Shown: positions 1-14,700 of the stretch, piece after piece | How the letters are laid out: every line of letters begins with the position of its first letter | How positions within the stretch are numbered: the first letter of the stretch is position 1 | Assembly (NCBI RefSeq): GCF_000298235.1 | Contig: NZ_BAHE01000011.1 | Coordinates: 1 to 64,000, forward strand | Direction: 5' to 3' | Source of the DNA: Gordonia namibiensis NBRC 108229 | GTDB taxonomy: Bacteria; Actinomycetota; Actinomycetes; Mycobacteriales; Mycobacteriaceae | Length of the DNA stretch: 64,000 bases | Made by a program: the position numbers and the translations under genes | The notes under the pieces: model-generated | Told to the model about the DNA's origin: nothing | The model's database searches: none | The model's input: the letters and a program-made list of their open reading frames with translations, nothing else

Positions 1-1793
1 CCGCGGCCGCTGGTGGCGCTCAACAATTCCCGCACGCTCGGGGCGTCGAACACATCACGGACGGTCACCTCGACGCCCAACTCATCCGAGACGCGTGCCG
101 CGATGCGGGCAGCCGACAGCGAGCTGCCGCCGAGGTCGAAGAACGAGTCGTTGACACTCACCTGCTCGAGGCCGAGCAGGTCGGCGAAGAGTCGGGCGAC
201 GGCCTCTTCGTCAGGTGTTTCCGGGGCCACGAACTCTGAGGCACCGAACTCGGGCGCCGGCAACGAACGGCGGTCCACCTTGCCAGATGTGTTCAGAGGC
301 ATGGATTCCAAGCGCACCCAGGTGGTCGGGCGCATGTACTCCGGCAGGCGTGCGGCCAGACCTGCTGCCACGGCGTCGACGTCGACGTCGTGCGGGGCCA
401 GATAGCCGACCAGTTGCTGGCCGCCAGGAGTGTCGACCACTGTCGCAGCCGCGTGCAGGACGCCGGGAGCCGCGGCGAGCGCCGCCTCGACCTCGCCGAG
501 TTCGAGGCGCTGGCCGCGTAGCTTGACCTGGAAGTCGTTGCGTCCGAGGTATTCCAGTTGCCCCTCGGTGTTCCAGCGCGCGCGGTCGCCGGTCCGGTAG
601 AGGCGAGCTCCCGGCTCGCCGAACGGATCGGCGACGAAGCGGTCCGCCGTCAGGTCGGCTCGACCGGCGTATCCGCGCGCCAACTGTTTCCCACCCAGAT
701 ACAACTCTCCCGGCACACCCGTCGGGGCGATGTCCAGTAAGTCGTCGAGAACGTAGGCTTCGACCCACCTCGTGGGGGTACCGATCGGCACCGTCCGGCT
801 GTCCGCGTCCACACGGTGGACGGTCGCGACGATGGATGCCTCGGCCGGACCGTACTGATTCTGGACCCGTGTCTCCGGCAGGTACGCCATCAGGTCTCGG
901 GCCACCGGTGCTGTCAGGGCTTCGCCTCCGGTCATGACCAACCGCAAGGAGTTCAGCTCCCCGAGTCGAGCACCGAGGACCTCGTTGAACGCGGCGAGCA
1001 TGGCCGGCACGAAGTGCACGACCGTGACGCCGTGACGACGGATCAGATCTGCCAGATGGGCCGGATCGCCGTGCATGCCGTGTTCTGCGATCACCATGGT
1101 CGCCCCGACCGTCACCGGCAGGAACACCTCGCGCACCGCTACGTCGAAATTGATCGGAGCCTTGTAGAGGAAGACGTCCTCGTCGGACAGGTCGTACTGT
1201 TCGGCATCCGCCTCGAGTCGATTGGCAACGCCCTCGTGCGTGATGACCACCGCTTTGGGGCGGCCCGTCGAACCGGAGGTGAACAAGGTGAAAGCGGCGT
1301 TGTCCGGCCTCACGGGCGCGGCCCGATCGGCGTCGGTGACCGGTGGCTCGTCTCCGGCGGGATCGCTCCCATCGAAGACGTGGATGTCGGCGAGATCGCC
1401 GAAGCGATCTGCCGCCTCGGCTCGGCCGCTGCCCGTCACGACGACCAGCCGCACCCCTGCCGTGGACACCATGTACCGGGAACGGTCCACCGGGAGTTGA
1501 GCATCCAGCGGAACGAAGTGGCCGCCTGCGGTGATCACTGCGTGGATCGCGATGACCTGCTCGATCGAGCGGTCCATCTGGATTCCGACCGCGACCTCGG
1601 AACGGACCCCGCGAGCGATGAGCTCGCGTGCCAGCATCGCCACTCGCGAATCGAACTCGCGGCGACTGACCTCGCGACTGCCGTGGATGATTACCGGACG
1701 GCTTGACCTGTTGCCCGGATCAATCACCTTCGACACCTTTCGCGATTCCTCACTGTCAGTACGCTCACTCATCGGGTTGGCCACCGAGCTCAC
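1..1793 (-). CDS. Non-ribosomal peptide synthetase, N-terminal part (A-T...), runs off left edge
   Basis: Last of three NRPS genes in the direction of transcription. The visible ~597 residues begin directly with an adenylation domain, with no condensation domain, and continue to a carrier (T) domain. Visible motifs are [11 protein letters not shown] (A3) near residue 175, YGPAEASIVAT (A5), [17 protein letters not shown] (A7), [13 protein letters not shown] (A8) and the phosphopantetheine site FFDLGGSSLS near residue 555. The pocket read by eye is D-V-R-H-M-G-Q-I-V, with no confident substrate. The GTG at 1793-1791 overlaps the preceding stop as GTGA, implying translational coupling; an ATG at 1772 is the alternative start. 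The upstream protein ends with a C domain, so one C-A-T module is split between two polypeptides. The remainder lies outside the window. Confidence 0.85.
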   Translation of the reverse strand, partial: MSSVANPMSERTDSEESRKVSKVIDPGNRSSRPVIIHGSREVSRREFDSRVAMLARELIARGVRSEVAVGIQMDRSIEQVIAIHAVITAGGHFVPLDAQLPVDRSRYMVSTAGVRLVVVTGSGRAEAADRFGDLADIHVFDGSDPAGDEPPVTDADRAAPVRPDNAAFTLFTSGSTGRPKAVVITHEGVANRLEADAEQYDLSDEDVFLYKAPINFDVAVREVFLPVTVGATMVIAEHGMHGDPAHLADLIRRHGVTVVHFVPAMLAAFNEVLGARLGELNSLRLVMTGGEALTAPVARDLMAYLPETRVQNQYGPAEASIVATVHRVDADSRTVPIGTPTRWVEAYVLDDLLDIAPTGVPGELYLGGKQLARGYAGRADLTADRFVADPFGEPGARLYRTGDRARWNTEGQLEYLGRNDFQVKLRGQRLELGEVEAALAAAPGVLHAAATVVDTPGGQQLVGYLAPHDVDVDAVAAGLAARLPEYMRPTTWVRLESMPLNTSGKVDRRSLPAPEFGASEFVAPETPDEEAVARLFADLLGLEQVSVNDSFFDLGGSSLSAARIAARVSDELGVEVTVRDVFDAPSVRELLSATSGR

Positions 1794-4700
1794 ACAGGTC
1801 TCGCCAGATGGACGAGTGTCGGGGAGCCGATCACGCTCCGGCGGCCTCGGGACCACTCCAGTATCTGGTTCCGTTCACTGTCGGTGAGCAGTCGAGTACC
1901 CCCGATCGTCATCTCGGGATTCGTCGTCACCTCTGCGAGAACCCTGACGAACCTCTCGCCGAACCGGCTCACCGACTGTTCGTCGAAGAGATCAGTCGCG
2001 TAGGTCACGCGGACCTCGCCGTCGCCTGCCCGATTGGTGCCCACCGATATGGACAGGTCGTTCTGCGCCGGGACGACCGGCGGCTCGAGCGGCGTGAACG
2101 CCAGATCGTCCGCGACCGCGTCGACGACGCCGGCTCCTAGGTCGACCGACCGGTCGATCACCGAGAGCACGACCTGCGCCAGGGGCGCGAACGCCTGCGA
2201 GCGCACGGGCTGAAGTCGCTCGACGACGGATTCGAAAGGTACATCCGCGTGTTCGAACGCCTCCAGGTCGACCGAACGAACCTGGTCGAGCAGATCGGCG
2301 AAACGCCCCCGCGACGTGACCTTCGTCCGCAGCACGAGTGTGTTGACGAACATGCCGATCACCGGTTCGAGAGCCTGCTGCCCCCGCCCTGCTATCGGGG
2401 TCGCGACCGCGATGTCGTCGGTCGCCGACAACCGTGCCAACACCACCGCCAGGGCCGCATGCACAACCATGAAGGGCGTCACGCCGCGTCGGCGCGCGAG
2501 TTCCTCGATGCCCAGACTGACCTCTGCGGGCAGCGGCACCGAGACCACCGCGCCCCGGTGGGAGGCCACCGTCGGGCGGGGACGATCGGCGGGCAGCTCC
2601 AGGACATCCGGCACTCCGGCCAGCTGCCGCGCCCAGTAGGCCAACTGGCGACCGACCACCGAGTCCGGATCTTCCGGCGATCCCAAGACGTCGCGCTGCC
2701 ACAGCGCGAAGTCGGCGTACTGCACATCCAGTGGCGCGAAGGCCGGGGTTCGGCCGTTCGAGCGGGCCGAATATGCGGTGACCAGGTCGGAGACGAGTGG
2801 TGCGAACGACTCCCGGTCGGAGGCGATGTGATGCATGATCACCGCGACCACGTGCTCGTCCGTGGCGGTCTTCCAGACACGCGCCCGCACCGGCCATTCG
2901 AGGCCGAGTCGGAAACCGGCTGCGACGGCGGCCTCGATGTCGGAGGCAGCGTGCACCTCTCGCCAGTCCAACCGCTCGGCGATCTCCGAGACGTCGTGCA
3001 CCAGCTGGAATGGTTCACCGTCGACGTCCGGGAAGGTCGTGCGGAGTGACTCGTGCCTCGCCACCACATCGCCGATCGCCGTCCGCAATGCCGCCACGTC
3101 GAGTTCACCGTCGACCCGTAGGACCAGCGGGACGTTGTACATCCCGCTCGACGGGTTGAACTTGTTGATGAACCACATCCGCTGCTGCGCGAAGGACAGC
3201 GGGACGTTCCCCGGACGCGACTCCGGCCGGGCCACCGGGGGCAGCGGGGCACGTCGCCCCCGGACTGCTTCGGCGAGCTCGCGCACCGTCGGGGCATCGA
3301 ACACATCGCGGACCGTCACCTCGACACCCAGGGCATCCGACACCCGGGACGTCAGACGCATCGCCGACAGCGAGTTGCCGCCCAGGTCGAAGAACGACTG
3401 GGTGACACTCACCTGCTCCACGCTCAGCAGCCCGGCGAACACGCCGGCGATCGCCTCTTCGGCTTCCGAAGCGGGAGCGACGTATTCGGCCGCTTCCAGC
3501 TCGGGCTCGGGCAGCGAACGGCGGTCGACCTTGCCGGCGGAGTTCAGCGGCATCTCGTCGAGGAGCACCCACGCGGTGGGGCGCATGTATTCGGCGAGCG
3601 CGTCCGAGAGCGATGTACGCACGGCATCGAGATCGACGGTCGCGGGGGCGACGTAGCCGACGAGCTGGTCCCCGCCCGGCCCGGCGACGACGCGGGCCGC
3701 GGCGTGGACGACACCGGGCGCGTCGGCGATCGCGGACTCGACCTCACCGAGTTCGAGTCGCTGTCCGCGCAGCTTCACCTGGAAGTCGGTGCGGCCCAGG
3801 TAATCCAGATCGCCGGTGCGGCGTCGGCGGACGAGGTCACCGGTCCGGTACAGCCGCGCTCCCGGGGCCCCGAACGGATCCGCGACGAAGCGCTCCGCGG
3901 TCAGATCCGGCCGGGCCGCGTAACCGCGCGCGGACTGGACACCACCCAGGTAGAGTTCGCCGGCCACCCCGTCTGGGACCGGGTGCAGGCGATCATCGAG
4001 CACAAAGGCGGTGGTGTTCGGCATGGGCCGCCCGATCGGGACGACGTCGACGGGCTCGTCCAATGCCGATGACATCGTGTAGACGGCGGCCTCGGTGGGA
4101 CCGAACAGGTTGACCACCCGGGCGTGGGGCACGCGCTCGGTGAATCGTCGGAGCACCGCCGGAGGAAGCGCCTCGCCGCCGCTGAACAACACCTGTAGTC
4201 CGGTCAGCAGATCCGGTCGGTCGACGACGTCGAGGAATACCGAGAGCAGCGACGGCACGAACTGGGCGACGGTCACGCCCGTTTCGGCCATGAGGTCGGC
4301 GAGGTAGTTCGGGTCGCGGTGGCCCTCGGCATCCGCGACCACCATCGTCTGCCCAGCTGTCAACGGCCAGAACAGTTCCAGGACCGACGCGTCGAATGTG
4401 TGCGGGGTCTTGAACACCAGACGCTGGGGCCCGGCAGGAATGAGCGAATCGAACCAGGCGACGAAGTTGGCGACCGCCCGATGCGAGACGGTGACGCCCT
4501 TCGGCCTGCCGGTCGAACCGGAGGTGAACAGCGTGTAGGCGGCGTCGTCGAGACGCAGTGTGGTGAGTCGTTCGGAAGCCGACAGCGGGGCCGCGTCGGC
4601 GGAAAGCGGTGCATCGGCGTCGAGTTCGATGATCGGCGACCGCCCGTCGAGCACATCGAGAACCTCGACGGGTCGGTGTCCCTTCTCCACGAGGACCGGT

Positions 4701-7700: not shown

Positions 7701-10700
7701 GTGAACAACGTGTACAACGCATCATCGACACTCAACGGCGCACGACGATCCGCATCCGACACCGGCCCCACACCGGCATCGAACGAACCCGACGCATCCA
7801 CCTCACGCACCGACAGACCATCGACCTGCGCCACCGCAGCCGGCACCGGCAACCCGCCGGCCACCAGCACCAGCGAAGCACCCGACGTCGCCAACATGTA
7901 CTCCACACGATCAGCAGGCGCATCCGGATCCACCGGCACATACTGCCCACCAGCAGCAACAACCGCATGAACCGCGACCAGCAACTCCACCGACCGCGGA
8001 ATCACCACAGCCACAGCAACATCCGGCCCCACACCAACCGCGATCAACTCACGCGCCAGCCCCCACACCCGAGCACCGAACTCACCGAACGACACAGTCC
8101 GATCCCCGAACACCAACGCATCACGACCCGGGTACGCCGCCACCGCACGCGACAACCCATCAGCCAACGAGCCAAGTCCGCCGAACGTGGCCGAATCGAT
8201 CGTCGGCGAACCAGACTCCAGGGACGCGACGGTCGAAGTCTCGTCCTCGGAGATGAGTGGCGCGTCTCCGACCGACATCCGTGGCGTCGAGGTCAGGGCA
8301 TCGAGCAGCCGTACGAATCGGCGCCCGATGAGCGCGGCCGTCGACGGATCGAACAGATCTGTGGCGAAGGTGACCGTGCCGGACCACCCAGCGGAGTCGA
8401 GGGAATGCAGACCGACCGTCAGGTCGTACTGCGCCGGGATGACCGGCGGATCGATCTCGGTGAACTGCAGTCCGCCGATCGTCGCGTCCAGCTTGTGGGC
8501 CGACCGCGCGGGATCGAACGACAGCATCACCTGCGCGAGCGGTGCGAATGCCTCACTGCGCACTGGCGCAAGGGTTTCGACGAGTGTCTCGAACGGGACG
8601 TCGCCGTTGGCGAAGGCGTCCAGATCGGCGGCCCGCACCTCCTCGAGGAAGTCGAGGAATGACTTGCCGGCATCGACACCCGTGCGAAGGACGAGAGTGT
8701 TGACGAACATGCCGACCAGCGGCTCCACCACGGCATGCGTGCGACCGGCGATCGGCGTGGCGATGGCCACGTCGTCGGTGGCGGCCACCCGTGACAGCAG
8801 CACGGCCAGTGCGGCGTGGGCGACCATGAACGGTGTGGCGCCGCTGATCCGGGCGATGTCCTCGACGCGTGCGACCACTTCGGCGGGTACGTCGAAGGCC
8901 ACCTGGTCACCGCGGTTGGTCGCGACGCGAGGCCGCTCCCGGTCGGTGGGTAGGTCGATGACGTCGGGGAGATCGGCCAACCGCTCCGTCCAGAAGCGCA
9001 GCTGACCCGCGACCAACGAAGTCGGGTCGGTCGCGTCGCCGAGAACGCGATGTTGCCAGAGCGCATAATCGGCGAACTGCACCTCGAGCGGTGCGTAGTC
9101 GGGCGCGCGGTGCTCGACCCGCGAGGTGTAGGCGGTGAGGAGGTCGGCGACCAGCGGCCGCATCGACTCGCCGTCGGCCGCGATGTGGTGCACCACCACG
9201 CCGAGGATGGTCTCGTCGGTGTCGGTGCGCAGCACAGCGACTCGGATCGGCATCTGCTCGGTGACGTCGAAACCGGCCGAGACCGCGGACTCGAAGACCT
9301 CCGGCGAGTCGGTGACCGTCCAGTCGAGAACCGATGCGGCCTGTGCGAGCGGCAGAATGACCTGGTTCGGCCGACCGTCGGCGGCCGGGAACACCGTTCG
9401 CAGAACGTCCTGGCGGGCGATCACGTCGACGACGGCGGTACGCAACGCTTCGACGTCGAGATGTCCGGTGATCCGGAGCAGGACCGGGATGTTGTATGTC
9501 GGCAGCGTCGGGTCGAACTGGTTGATGAACCACATCCGCTGTTGGGAGAACGAGAGCGGGATGACATCCGGGCGGGGATCGGCGGGAGTGATCGGCTCGA
9601 GACCGGGCGCCGCATCCTTCACCCGGGCTGCCAGGCCGCGGACGGTGGGTGCATCGAACAGATCGCGCATGTTGAGGTCGACGTTGAGGACCTCACACGC
9701 CCGACCCACGATCTGGGCTGCGATCAGCGAGTTGCCGCCGACGTCGAACACGGACTCGGTGACGCTGATGTCCTCGAGACCGAGCACCGCCGTGAACACG
9801 TCGACGAGCGCGCGTTCGGTGTCGTCCGCCGGCGGCACGTACTCGACGCCGGACTCGAAAACAGGCTTGGGCAGTGCTTTTCGGTCCAGCTTCCCGTTCG
9901 CGGTGAGCGGCAGGCGTTCCACGCCGACGATTGCGTCGGGAACCATGTACCCGGGCACCTGTGCGGCCATCGCCGACCGGACCGCGGCGGCGTCCACGTC
10001 CTCGCCGGGAGCCACCACGAGGTAACCGACCAGCTGGTCACCACGATCCGGGTCCTCGATAACCCGAGCGGCTGCTGCGGCCGCCTCCGGCATCGCGGCC
10101 AGCAACGCCGCCTCGATCTCACCGAATTCGATCCGGAAACCGCGCAGTTGGACCTGCGCATCGTTACGGCCCAGATACTCGATGTCGTCACCGACCCGCC
10201 GGGCGCGGTCGCCGGTCCGGTACATCCGGGAGCCGTCATCGGCGAACGGGTTCGCGACGAATCGCGAGGACGTCAGACTCGGTCGTTTCAGGTAGCCGGA
10301 GGCCAACTGGCCTCCGGTCACATAGATCTCGCCCGGCACGCCCTGCGGTACCGGGTTCAATCGCTCGTCGAGAATGTGGATACCCAGCGAGGTCAGCGGT
10401 CGGCCGATCAGGGACGCGTCGGTGCTGGCAACCGAATCCCGGTCGAGCGCACGGAAACTCACATGCACGGTGGTCTCGGTGATGCCGTACATGTTCACCA
10501 GCTGCGCGGTATCGGACGGGTTCTCGTCGTACCAGCGGCGGACCTGGTCGAAACTCAGCGCCTCGCCGCCGAACACCACATACCGCAACGCCAGTTCGCG
10601 CCGATCGCCCCGACGGGCGTCGATCAACTGGTAGAACGCCGACGGGGTCTGACTCAGCACCGTCACCTGTTCGGTCACCAGGACGTCCAGGAATGCTCGT

Positions 10701-11713
10701 GGATCCCGCGCCAGGTCGCGATCGATGACCACCAGCCGAGCCCCGGACAGCAGTGGGCCCCACATCTCCCACACCGAGAAGTCGAACGCATACGAATGGA
10801 ACATCGTCCACACGTCCGACGCGGAGAACTTGAAATCGTCTGCCGCGGCGTTGATCAGGGTGACGACGTCACGATGGGTGATCTCGACGCCCTTCGGCCG
10901 CCCGGTCGACCCCGAGGTGTAGATGACGTATGCCCGCGCGTCCGCCGGCACCCGAACCGGGTTCGCGGCCGTGACCGACTCGGTTGCGAGTGCCTCGACG
11001 TCCACCACCAGGGCCCCGTCCGGGAGGCGATCCCACAGGGCGTGATCGGCCGACGACGCATCGCTGATGACCACCGCCACCTCGGCGTCGGCGACGATGA
11101 ACGACAGGCGTTCGACCGGGTTACCCAGATCCAGCGGCAGGTACCCGGCCCTGGCCTTCATCACACCGAGGATCGCGGACATGAGGTCGACCGTCCGGGC
11201 GGTGGCGATGCCGACCAGGTCACCGGCGGCGACCCCGCGGGCGGCGAGCCCGGCGGCCACCGCGTCCGAGCGAGCATCGAGCTCGCCATAGGACAGCGAC
11301 CGGCCCGACGCCGACACCGCGACGCGATCCGCGAACCGATGCGCGGCAGAGCGGAACAGACCCGGCAGCGACTCCCAATCGGAGGTTCCGGCCAGTGCCC
11401 ACGCCGCGGTCCGGATCTGCTCGACGACGCGACTCGTCGTCGTGGCGATCTCGTTCGGCGCGAGTCCTGCCAACGACAACTGACCGGTGACGGCGGCTCC
11501 CACCGCCGCCTCCGTGTCGATCCCCTGCGCCGCGAGAACTCCCGCGGTCATCGAGACCGTCGCGTTCAGTGCGGCGAACGGGACCGGGCCGGACTTGCCC
11601 TCGAACGCGGTCTGCGCAGGAGCGACCGACGCGGCATGTGCGATCAGTTGCAGGGTGGACGGCCGAGCGCCCCAACCACGCGAGATGTCAGCGGCGTCAG
11701 AGTCGACGGTCAC
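1790..11713 (-). CDS. Trimodular non-ribosomal peptide synthetase (stub-A-T-C-A-T-C-A-T-C)
   Basis: 3,307-residue cytosolic NRPS. By eye the order is: N-terminal A-like stub (~1-110), A1 (core [11 protein letters not shown] ~270), T1 (FDVGGNSL ~658), C1 (HHIAADG ~845), A2 (~1342), T2 (FDLGGNSL ~1719), C2 (HHIAFDG ~1907), A3 (~2401), T3 (~2776) and C3 (HHIASDR ~2965). Pockets read by hand: A1 D-F-W-S-V-G-M-V-H, close to the known Thr code; A2 D-V-W-H-F-S-L-V-D, the known Ser code; A3 D-A-L-Q-F-G-L-V-Y, unassigned. There is no epimerase or thioesterase. C3 has Arg in place of the conserved Gly of HHxxxDG. The A2-T2 stretch (~6.43-8.17 kb) has markedly different codon use. The GTG start overlaps the upstream stop (GTGA), and the protein ends just after C3. 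Confidence 0.93.
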
Positions 11714-14700
11714 GTCCTGTTGTTTCCTTCTGAAGCGGTGGACAGATCGATGATCGCGGAGGCGTTGGAGCGCAGGCCGCTCAGAACCTCGTCGAGCGCG
11801 GCCGGACCACCTGCGGCCAGACTGGGCACCACACTCATCAGTGCCATCGTGAGCGTGGCGTCGGAGTCTGATCCCGGAAGGGCGGCCGCCATTGCTCTCA
11901 CCATGTCCGCCAGTTGACCGAAGTCGACGCTCACGCCGTCGTGTTCCACGGCGATCGCCCCGGGATCGGTGTCGCCGGCGATGGTGACGAGATCGGTGAG
12001 CCGAATGTCTGCCGCAACCGGATCGACAGCTTCGGCCTGCTCATCAGCGGTGAGGATCACGATGTCCCCGACGATACACTCGGCGTCGGCGGCGACGGCC
12101 TCGAGGATTCCGAGATATCGCTGCGCCACGGTCTCGATCGTGGACCGGTCGAAGAGATCGGTGGCGTAGACGAGCTGCGCCTTCATCGCGCCGGCTCCCG
12201 GATTGTGTCCCGCCGCTGCCGGGTCGTTCGGGTACAGGTTCAACTGCAGATCGACCTTGGCCGGGATGATCCCCTCGGCCACCGGTGACACGACCACGTC
12301 GCCGAGTTCGAGCGACGGGAAGTCGATGTTCTGGAAGGCGAACATCACCTGGAACAACGGGTTGTGGGACGTCGTCGGCGCACTCAGTATCTTCGCGACA
12401 ATCGTCTCGAAAGCGACGTCTGTGTTGGCCATGTCGGCGAGGTCATCACGACGCACCCGGGACAGCAGATCGCTGAACTTCTCCCCGTGGTCGATCCGGG
12501 TCCGCAACGCGAGGCTGTTGACGAACATGCCCACCACCTCGTCGAGCGCCTGTTCGCCACGTCCGGCGTACGGCGTGCCGATCACGAGGTCGTTGCGTCC
12601 GCTCAGACGCGACAACAGCACCGCGTAGGCGGCATGGGTGACCATGAACATCGTGGTGTTGTTCGCGCGTGCGACGGACTCCAGGGATCGCGCCAGATCC
12701 TCGGGGATCTCGAACTCGACCTGATCGCCGACGTACGACGGCGTCCTCGGCCGGGGCCGATCCGTCGGCAGATCGATGGTCTCGGGGGCCCCGGACAGGC
12801 GGTCGATCCAATAGTCGAGCTGGCGTTGCGCCTCGGTGACGCCCTCGTCGTCGGTCGTCGCCAGCCGTTCGGCCTGCCACAGGGTGAAGTCTGCGTACTG
12901 GACCGGTAGCGGCGCCCACGTCGGCGGGAGCCCTTCGTGGCGGGCTGCGTAGGCCATCATCAGATCGCGGGCCAGCGGCGCCATCGAGGCGCCGTCGGCG
13001 CTGATGTGATGCACGACGAAGACGACCACGTGCTCGTCCTCGTCGACACGCAGCAGGGCGAGGCGGACCGGCGGGGCGGTCGTGATGTCGAACCCGCGGC
13101 CGGTCACGGCCGCGATGGCGTCGGCCACGCTCCCCGAGACCTGTACCGGGGTCACGTCGAGGCCGGCGACCTCGTCGGGTGGGCTGATGATCTGCATCGG
13201 TTCGCCGTTGATCATCGGGTAGCTGGTCCGCAGCGATTCGTGCCTGCGGAGCAGGTCGTCCACCGCGGCGCGCAGTGCGTCGACGTCCAGTCGGCCGCGC
13301 AGCTCGAGAGCGAGGGCGACGTTGTAGGCCGGGGACTCCGGATCGGCACGGCTGAGCAGCCACATGCCGCGCTGAACGGCGGACACCGGGACCATCTCGG
13401 CGCGCTGACGCGCGATCAGCGGGACCGCCGAGTGACCGGAGAGGCTGTTGGTGATGTATTCGGCGAGCCGGGCCACATCTGCGGACTCGAAGATCGCCTT
13501 CACCGGGACCTGCCGGTCCAGCGCCGCCGACAGACGTGCGGACACCTTGGTGGCCGACAGCGAGTTGCCACCCATCTCGAAGAAGCCGTCGTGCACGCTG
13601 ACCCGCTCGACCCCGAGTACCTGGGCGAAGACCTCGGCGACGATGGCCTCGAGCTGCGTCCGCGGCGGGACAAAGTCCTTGCTCGCGCTGAAGTCGACCG
13701 GCGGCAGCTTGGTGCGGTCGATCTTGCCGACGTTGGTCAGTTCGAAGGAGTCGACCACGACGATCGTGTGCGGGACCATGTAGCGCGGCAGGAGCTGCGT
13801 CACGTGCTCGGTCAACGCCTCGGGCATCGGCGAGCGGTCGTCGGTCGCGGTCACATATGCGACCAGGACGTCTTCGCCGGCCGGTCCGGGCACACCGAGG
13901 CTGACCGCATTGGCGACGTCCGGGTGGGACATCAATGCGTTGTCGACCTCACCGAGCTCGATGCGGAGTCCGCGCACCTTCAGCTGGAAATCGTCGCGGC
14001 CGTGATAGATCAACCGCCCGTCGGCACGACGGACGACCCGGTCACCCGTCCGGTACATCCGCGTCCCGTTCGAGTACGGGTTCGCGATGAACCGCTCGGC
14101 GGTCAGACCGGGGCGGCCCAGGTAACCGATGGCCAGCTGATCGCCCACGAGGTAGAGCTCGCCGACGACCCCGGCCGGGGTCGGCCGCAGTCCGCGATCC
14201 AGGACGAGGGCCCCGACTCCGGGTACCGCCGTTCCGATCGTCATGTCGTCGGCGGGCGAGAACGGTCCGTCCGCGGTGGCCCAGATGGTCGTCTCGGTGG
14301 GGCCGTAGAGGTTGAAGAACCGGCGACCCGCGGACACCCAGCGGCGCATCAGTTCTGGCGGGCATGCCTCGCCCGCACTCAGCACCGTGGTCAGCGACGG
14401 CACCGCTGCCGGTTCCAGGGTCGCCAGTGCCGACGGCGTCATGACCGCATGTGTCACACCGGATTCCGCGATCAGCTGCTCGAGCTGGTCGCCGGCGTAG
14501 GTGTCGGGGTCGGCGACGACCAGCTGAGCGGACGACCCGAGCGCCATCGTCAGCTCGAAGACCGAGGCATCGAAGCTCGGGGACGCGACATGCAGCACCC
14601 GCGAGGTCTCGTCGAGCCTCAGGATCTCGCGCTGATTCGCCATCATGTTCGCCAGACCGCGATGGCTCACGGCGGCCGCCTTGGGCGTGCCCGTCGAACC

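Follow-up and report, generated by a model that had tools for sequence, protein, structure and literature searches.

Adenylation-domain-like stubs facing each other across a C//A subunit border in Gordonia: a putative heterotypic NRPS docking pair

Beta-hairpin docking domains are folded N-terminal elements whose partner is a short linear motif rather than a homologous domain, and they are not known to have a link to adenylation (A) domains. They are named in section 11 of PMC9113145, the available part of which gives COM and PAX as the NRPS-only docking classes, the former, found at E/C junctions, pairing a helix with a strand hand and the latter, found at a PCP/C junction, forming a three-helix bundle. 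According to the accessible text of PMC11186497, the tomaymycin NRPS TomB carries in its first 90 residues a PCP-like adaptor domain, BN, that recruits the donor carrier protein to a condensation (C) domain. In the corallorazine NRPS, as described in the accessible part of PMC11342130, a cut behind motif A8 divides one catalytic A domain into two parts, both of them required for activity.

The border considered here lies in the window, a 64,000-nucleotide stretch of contig NZ_BAHE01000011.1 from Gordonia namibiensis NBRC 108229, and all of its features are on the minus strand. The NRPS subunit P0002 (11710..19764) is organized as C-A-T-C-A-T-C-stub1, and the subunit P0001 (1790..11713) as stub2-A-T-C-A-T-C-A-T-C, which places the border as C//A within one module. 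Domain annotation puts the last C domain of P0002, upstream of stub1, at 12097..13404 and the first full A domain of P0001, downstream of stub2 and complete, at 9905..11356. Stub1 occupies the C terminus of P0002 (11713..12036, family-profile match 11722-12036), whose translation after the last C domain contains RLTDLV; stub2 occupies the N terminus of P0001 (11387..11713, family-profile match 11387-11704), whose translation ahead of the first A domain contains STLQLI. Each is about 90 residues long and consists of some 55 residues resembling the start of an A domain, followed by a putatively helical tail of about 40 residues. The A1-like motif of stub1 stands 55 residues past the C domain, the corresponding distance being 54-66 in the real A domains of the same proteins. 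A complete adenylation core is absent from these two segments, and the Pfam AMP-binding stretches fall on the real A domains only (two in P0002, three in P0001); the stubs are catalytically empty. The stop of P0002 and the start of P0001 overlap by 4 bp in a GTGA at 11710..11713. A start 4 bp ahead of the stop-codon end was likewise found at 21 of 29 Gordonia loci selected by stub1, the starts in this count being script-picked. The first-pass annotation had described non-catalytic, A-domain-like stubs of this length on both sides of a GTGA-coupled junction, and translation, domain annotation and family profiles bear this description out.

At the other end of P0001, the P0001//P0003 border (window 1700-1860) is also C//A and has no stubs. 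The C-terminal end of P0001 resembles the first A-domain helix, the A domain of P0003 is seemingly cut after that helix, and P0003 begins with a new, different short N-terminus (MSERTDSEESRK...). Two stub-less C//A borders of the same kind are present in G005 (L190).

Like COM and PAX, the pair would place complementary C- and N-terminal elements at a subunit border (PMC9113145, available part). COM belongs to E/C junctions and docks a helix onto the C-domain hand, whereas the Gordonia border is C//A and has A-like domains on both sides; relative to PAX, with which it was compared by junction alone, it is C//A and not PCP/C. The two Gordonia sides differ from both classes in being homologous domains of about 90 residues with an A-domain start. 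The stubs would share with beta-hairpin domains a folded N-terminal docking element, but the presumed partner of that element is here homologous and A-domain-related. TomB BN is similar in that a non-catalytic version of a standard NRPS domain serves inter-subunit recognition, yet it is carrier-like and the accessible text of PMC11186497 describes no homologous partner stub for it. The corallorazine synthetase has A-domain pieces on two genes and a border inside a module, whereas in Gordonia the stubs come in addition to a complete downstream A domain (PMC11342130, accessible part). Among the papers listed on docking domains and A-domain fragments, no title or abstract opening describes such a pair, and the word docking is absent from the accessible text of PMC4035055, PMC3848822 and PMC5550956. 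Searches of NCBIfam with stub1 and stub2 returned no curated family (best E 0.012 and 0.0094, respectively), and 25 stubs compared with Pfam gave AMP-binding in 10, with a best E of 9e-6.

An end-to-end alignment of the two stubs had been proposed by eye. Window stub1 and stub2 alone give a BLASTP E of 3.4, which is not significant, so that this alignment is not provable from the two sequences; profiles of 29 Gordonia rows each do align end to end (hhalign probability 96.6, E 6.4e-10, 86 columns), and it is at this level that the proposal holds. Against A domains, Gordonia stub1 gives E 7e-9 over 46 columns and Gordonia stub2 E 1.5e-10 over 58 columns, while all stub sets compared with the A-domain profile range from E 7e-9 to 1.6e-17. 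Part of the similarity between stub1 and stub2 is, judging from these alignments, owed to common A-domain ancestry. When the PDB was searched with a profile built on 25 other-genera relatives, A domains matched over about 55 residues and 53 PDB sequences, named as NRPS proteins and CoA/carrier-protein ligases, were found at E <=0.01. The best single A domain was 6ea3_B (E 3.5e-10), the match to LgrA (E 1.4e-16) being a sum over two A domains. The Gordonia stub1 profile was weaker in the same database (best E 0.0062), its 28 matches at E <=1 including unrelated proteins. Together, the profile and PDB matches indicate that the stubs share common descent with A domains.

The tails, compared after cutting off the A-like part, help to tell stubs and A domains apart. 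Among other genera, the tails of stub1 and stub2 match at E 7.5e-14, and those of stub1, stub2 and internal stubs match mutually at E 4e-14 to 6e-13. The Gordonia stub1 tail matches each of these three other-genera tails (E 1.1e-6, 8e-6 and 6e-6, in that order); the Gordonia stub2 tail matches the other-genera stub1 tail (E 2.3e-5) and the internal-stub tail (E 1.5e-5), with no match to the other-genera stub2 tail (E 0.038). Compared directly, the Gordonia stub1 and stub2 tails match weakly (E 0.0018, the best among 30 column shuffles being 0.079). Against A domains, the tails give E 0.019-0.28 across the four terminal sets and, for internal stubs, E 2.6e-4 over 15 columns. Because the tail is not found in A domains, the stubs are not simply truncated A domains: the A-domain origin put forward by the first-pass annotation stands on the PDB and profile matches, whereas truncation leaves a tail foreign to A domains unaccounted for. 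A fully supported branch also sets the 24 A domains apart in a tree of 170 sequences. Derivation by plain truncation, opposed by the tail and by this branch, is doubtful; it is favored by the weak direct match of the Gordonia tails and by five internal stubs of one kind that adjoin the A domains (SH-aLRT 89 in the 170-sequence tree, 95/83 in another tree). Chance similarity between stub1 and stub2 is ruled out by the profile alignment and the tail comparisons.

Within Gordonia the two stubs keep company. Stub1 matches are present in 56 of 59 genomes (E <=0.01), and both stubs, with stub2 on the next gene, were found at 30/30 loci selected by stub1, a sample chosen by that stub as the best 30 of the 56 genomes with a match. 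Because locus L008 begins where its contig does, its C domain is out of view; both stubs are present. Both were also found at 13 of 15 loci selected by stub2, the two without stub1 being L091 (G. amarae) and L090 (a draft Gordonia genome), and at all seven further Gordonia regions. A scan with stub2 relatives returned 16 loci, 15 of them in Gordonia and the nearest in G. amicalis (90% identity); the sixteenth, in Rhodovibrio, was discarded as a chance-like match with no NRPS border there. G. namibiensis NBRC 108229 itself has a second stub pair on contig C40 (L063). The counts of paired, internal and N-terminal stubs over all locus sets, here and below, were made by one script, and the sets share genomes. 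At L091 and L090, a normal stub2-A protein lies downstream of one in which a degenerate A domain of some 370 residues, at the C-terminal end behind a C domain, takes up the position of stub1. At L011 (G018), a unit of about 12 residues (VTGAGSEASGPN) is repeated in tandem in the C-terminal tail beyond stub1.

Outside this genus the picture is mixed. Twenty regions picked as long matches from an order-wide search comprised 10 paired borders (one being L063 of G. namibiensis), 7 internal single stubs, 2 stubs that were N-terminal only and 1 that was free-standing. A broader profile, with 11 candidates scored per genome, matched 267 of 401 family genomes at E <=1e-9, a figure that is not a count of stub-bearing genomes since ordinary A-domain starts score too (up to 46 bits, L111). 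The best 30 family-wide loci divided into 16 paired, including L142 with its broken downstream frame, and 14 internal, with one stub within a single chain; of 20 additional regions, 13 were paired and 5 internal, one had a free-standing stub, and in one a C-terminal stub lay opposite a dead protein. The supposition that stubs are confined to subunit borders is overturned by the single stubs inside one chain at 14/30 and 5/20 of these loci. That they pair at such borders is true of many, and is qualified by the internal stubs, a few N-terminal stubs with no partner beside them and the free-standing copy; of the two observations that were to count against a docking pair, mutual dissimilarity is not what the profiles give, and occurrence in a single chain or without a partner is found in part. 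Upstream of the N-terminal stubs of G363:C10 (L082/L205) and G343:C140 (L064/L206), no NRPS match was detected within the at least 10 kb examined. That of G215:C18 (L208) is separated by over 1.3 kb from an upstream NRPS whose last domain is a plain C domain, and that of G305:C16 lies close to a contig end. Where an N-terminal stub has no C-terminal stub beside it, any partner it has must come from a gene elsewhere. With profile A4 at E <=1e-17 and 15 candidates per genome scored, only same-family genomes matched, 6/298 from the order and 2/296 from the phylum, a result that does not establish absence outside the family, the cut having also missed Gordonia stubs. The long matches outside the family in G299 and G087, among the matches listed, proved to be ordinary A domains. 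One match, from Nocardia farcinica, came from a plasmid collection. In G715 (L159/L164), the protein facing the C-terminal stub consists of two A-like domains in succession, both of them dead, plus a C-like remnant, and in G449 (L145/L144) two free-standing stub proteins, one of them stub1-like, lie close to the beginning of a giant NRPS that forms a single chain and has two internal stubs.

Phylogenies group the stubs by junction set, not all C-terminal with all C-terminal. The G305:C7 border has two stubs where its fused relatives have one, at apparently the same place. Its stubs group with the single internal stubs of these relatives (94/94), its N-terminal stub nests inside the internal ones (99/91), and the post-stub A domains of G305 and G414 group together (SH-aLRT 98). 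In a 63-row tree, a single clade was rejected for all C-terminal stubs (p 0.003) and for all N-terminal stubs (p 0.0001; p 0.011 without L076), the groups having been tested after the first tree was seen and not named in advance. AU tests on the 170-row tree, where the free search was incomplete, did not reject a single clade per side (p 0.82, 0.77); the constrained trees there outscored the free one, and the test therefore does not count. The smaller tree suggests, with moderate support, that splitting an internal C-stub-A arrangement goes with a stub copy on each new end; the reverse route, fusion with loss of one copy, is possible. Median dN/dS values between close pairs, which are not independent, were 0.21 for C-terminal stubs (59 pairs), 0.23 for N-terminal (52), 0.17 for internal (113) and 0.21 for free-standing stubs (4 pairs), compared with 0.23 for A-domain stretches (423 pairs) and 0.27 for C-domain stretches (318). 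The stubs are under purifying selection.

We consider it probable, though well short of certain, that stub1 and stub2 are an A-derived heterotypic docking pair joining the upstream C domain to the downstream A domain of the same module. Both would go back to one domain of about 90 residues, made of the first 55 or so residues of an A domain and a tail of its own, of the kind that sits between C and A within single chains of other genomes. A split of the gene at that site would have left each new end with a copy, and the two copies may bind each other, a contact that would replace the covalent C-A link and whose differences among junctions could give specificity. Splitting may have occurred once or several times. 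Complementary elements on facing subunit termini, as this proposal predicts, occur at 30/30 and 13/15 Gordonia loci and at 16/30 and 13/20 further loci, the rest being mostly internal. Weighing on the other side are the internal stubs, conserved with no partner in their own chain, the partnerless N-terminal stubs, the 2/15 stub2 loci lacking stub1 and the stub-less P0001//P0003 border. The internal stubs, conserved and under selection, would also be at home if the domain were a structural spacer between C and A, giving a special module its geometry, and was doubled by partial duplication at splits, the copies not binding. The real-A-domain distance that stub1 keeps from the C domain fits such a spacer as well; however, a spacer is needed on one side only and both border copies remain constrained, and a C-terminal stub almost always lies opposite an N-terminal one, so that we regard this explanation as unlikely. 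Still harder to credit, at a very low probability, is the view that gene fission left the stubs behind as non-functional debris. They are catalytically empty, degenerate A domains sit in the same place in two Gordonia genomes, and the facing protein of G715 consists solely of dead A-like and C-like domains; yet dN/dS near 0.2, like that of catalytic domains, and occurrence in several genera are not what debris would show.

The stubs might instead be sites for a third protein that bridges or regulates the subunits, and a candidate is at hand. A free-standing protein that carries the stub domain and is about 100 residues long is matched in 56 of 59 Gordonia genomes (frames of <=220 residues, with one exception of 230), and an MbtH-like gene lies <=1.5 kb upstream of its gene in 18 of 20 loci. 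The G. namibiensis copy (L188 3775-4092; G000:C49:180301-180585) is encoded on contig C49, where it is preceded by an NRPS frame and by two frames that carry an MbtH-like motif. The free-standing profile matches stub1 at E 5.7e-9 and stub2 at E 1.9e-8. For three of these proteins no curated family was found in NCBIfam (best E 0.0006, an NRPS model) or Pfam (FSH1 at 5e-4 in one, AMP-binding at 0.011 in two). Stub1 and free-standing matches coexist in 54/59 Gordonia genomes; G036 and G042 have a free-standing match and no stub1 match, and G035 has neither. G034 and G002, on the other hand, carry stub1 but no free-standing match, and only 4 of 40 chosen non-Gordonia genomes (G449, G479, G458 and G462; 39 of the 40 from the same family) have one at E <=1e-7, although paired borders occur there. 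A third protein as the reason for the stubs accordingly strikes us as distinctly improbable, if less so than debris and somewhat more so than the spacer.

Split states with two stubs and fused states with one exist in relatives, which makes the docking proposal directly testable. If the proposal is true, the conserved pair marks a natural cut-and-join site at a C//A border inside a module, of use for engineering, and shows how a catalytic fold can be recycled into a connector, possibly of a type new for NRPS assembly. More tentatively, and with the odds rather against it, the distribution of homologues would be compatible with a domain born from an A-domain start that serves as a general NRPS assembly element in the family of Gordonia, and that may take three forms: the docking pair, the internal C-A insert and the free-standing mbtH-side protein, the last acting in trans as a bridge, cap or regulator.
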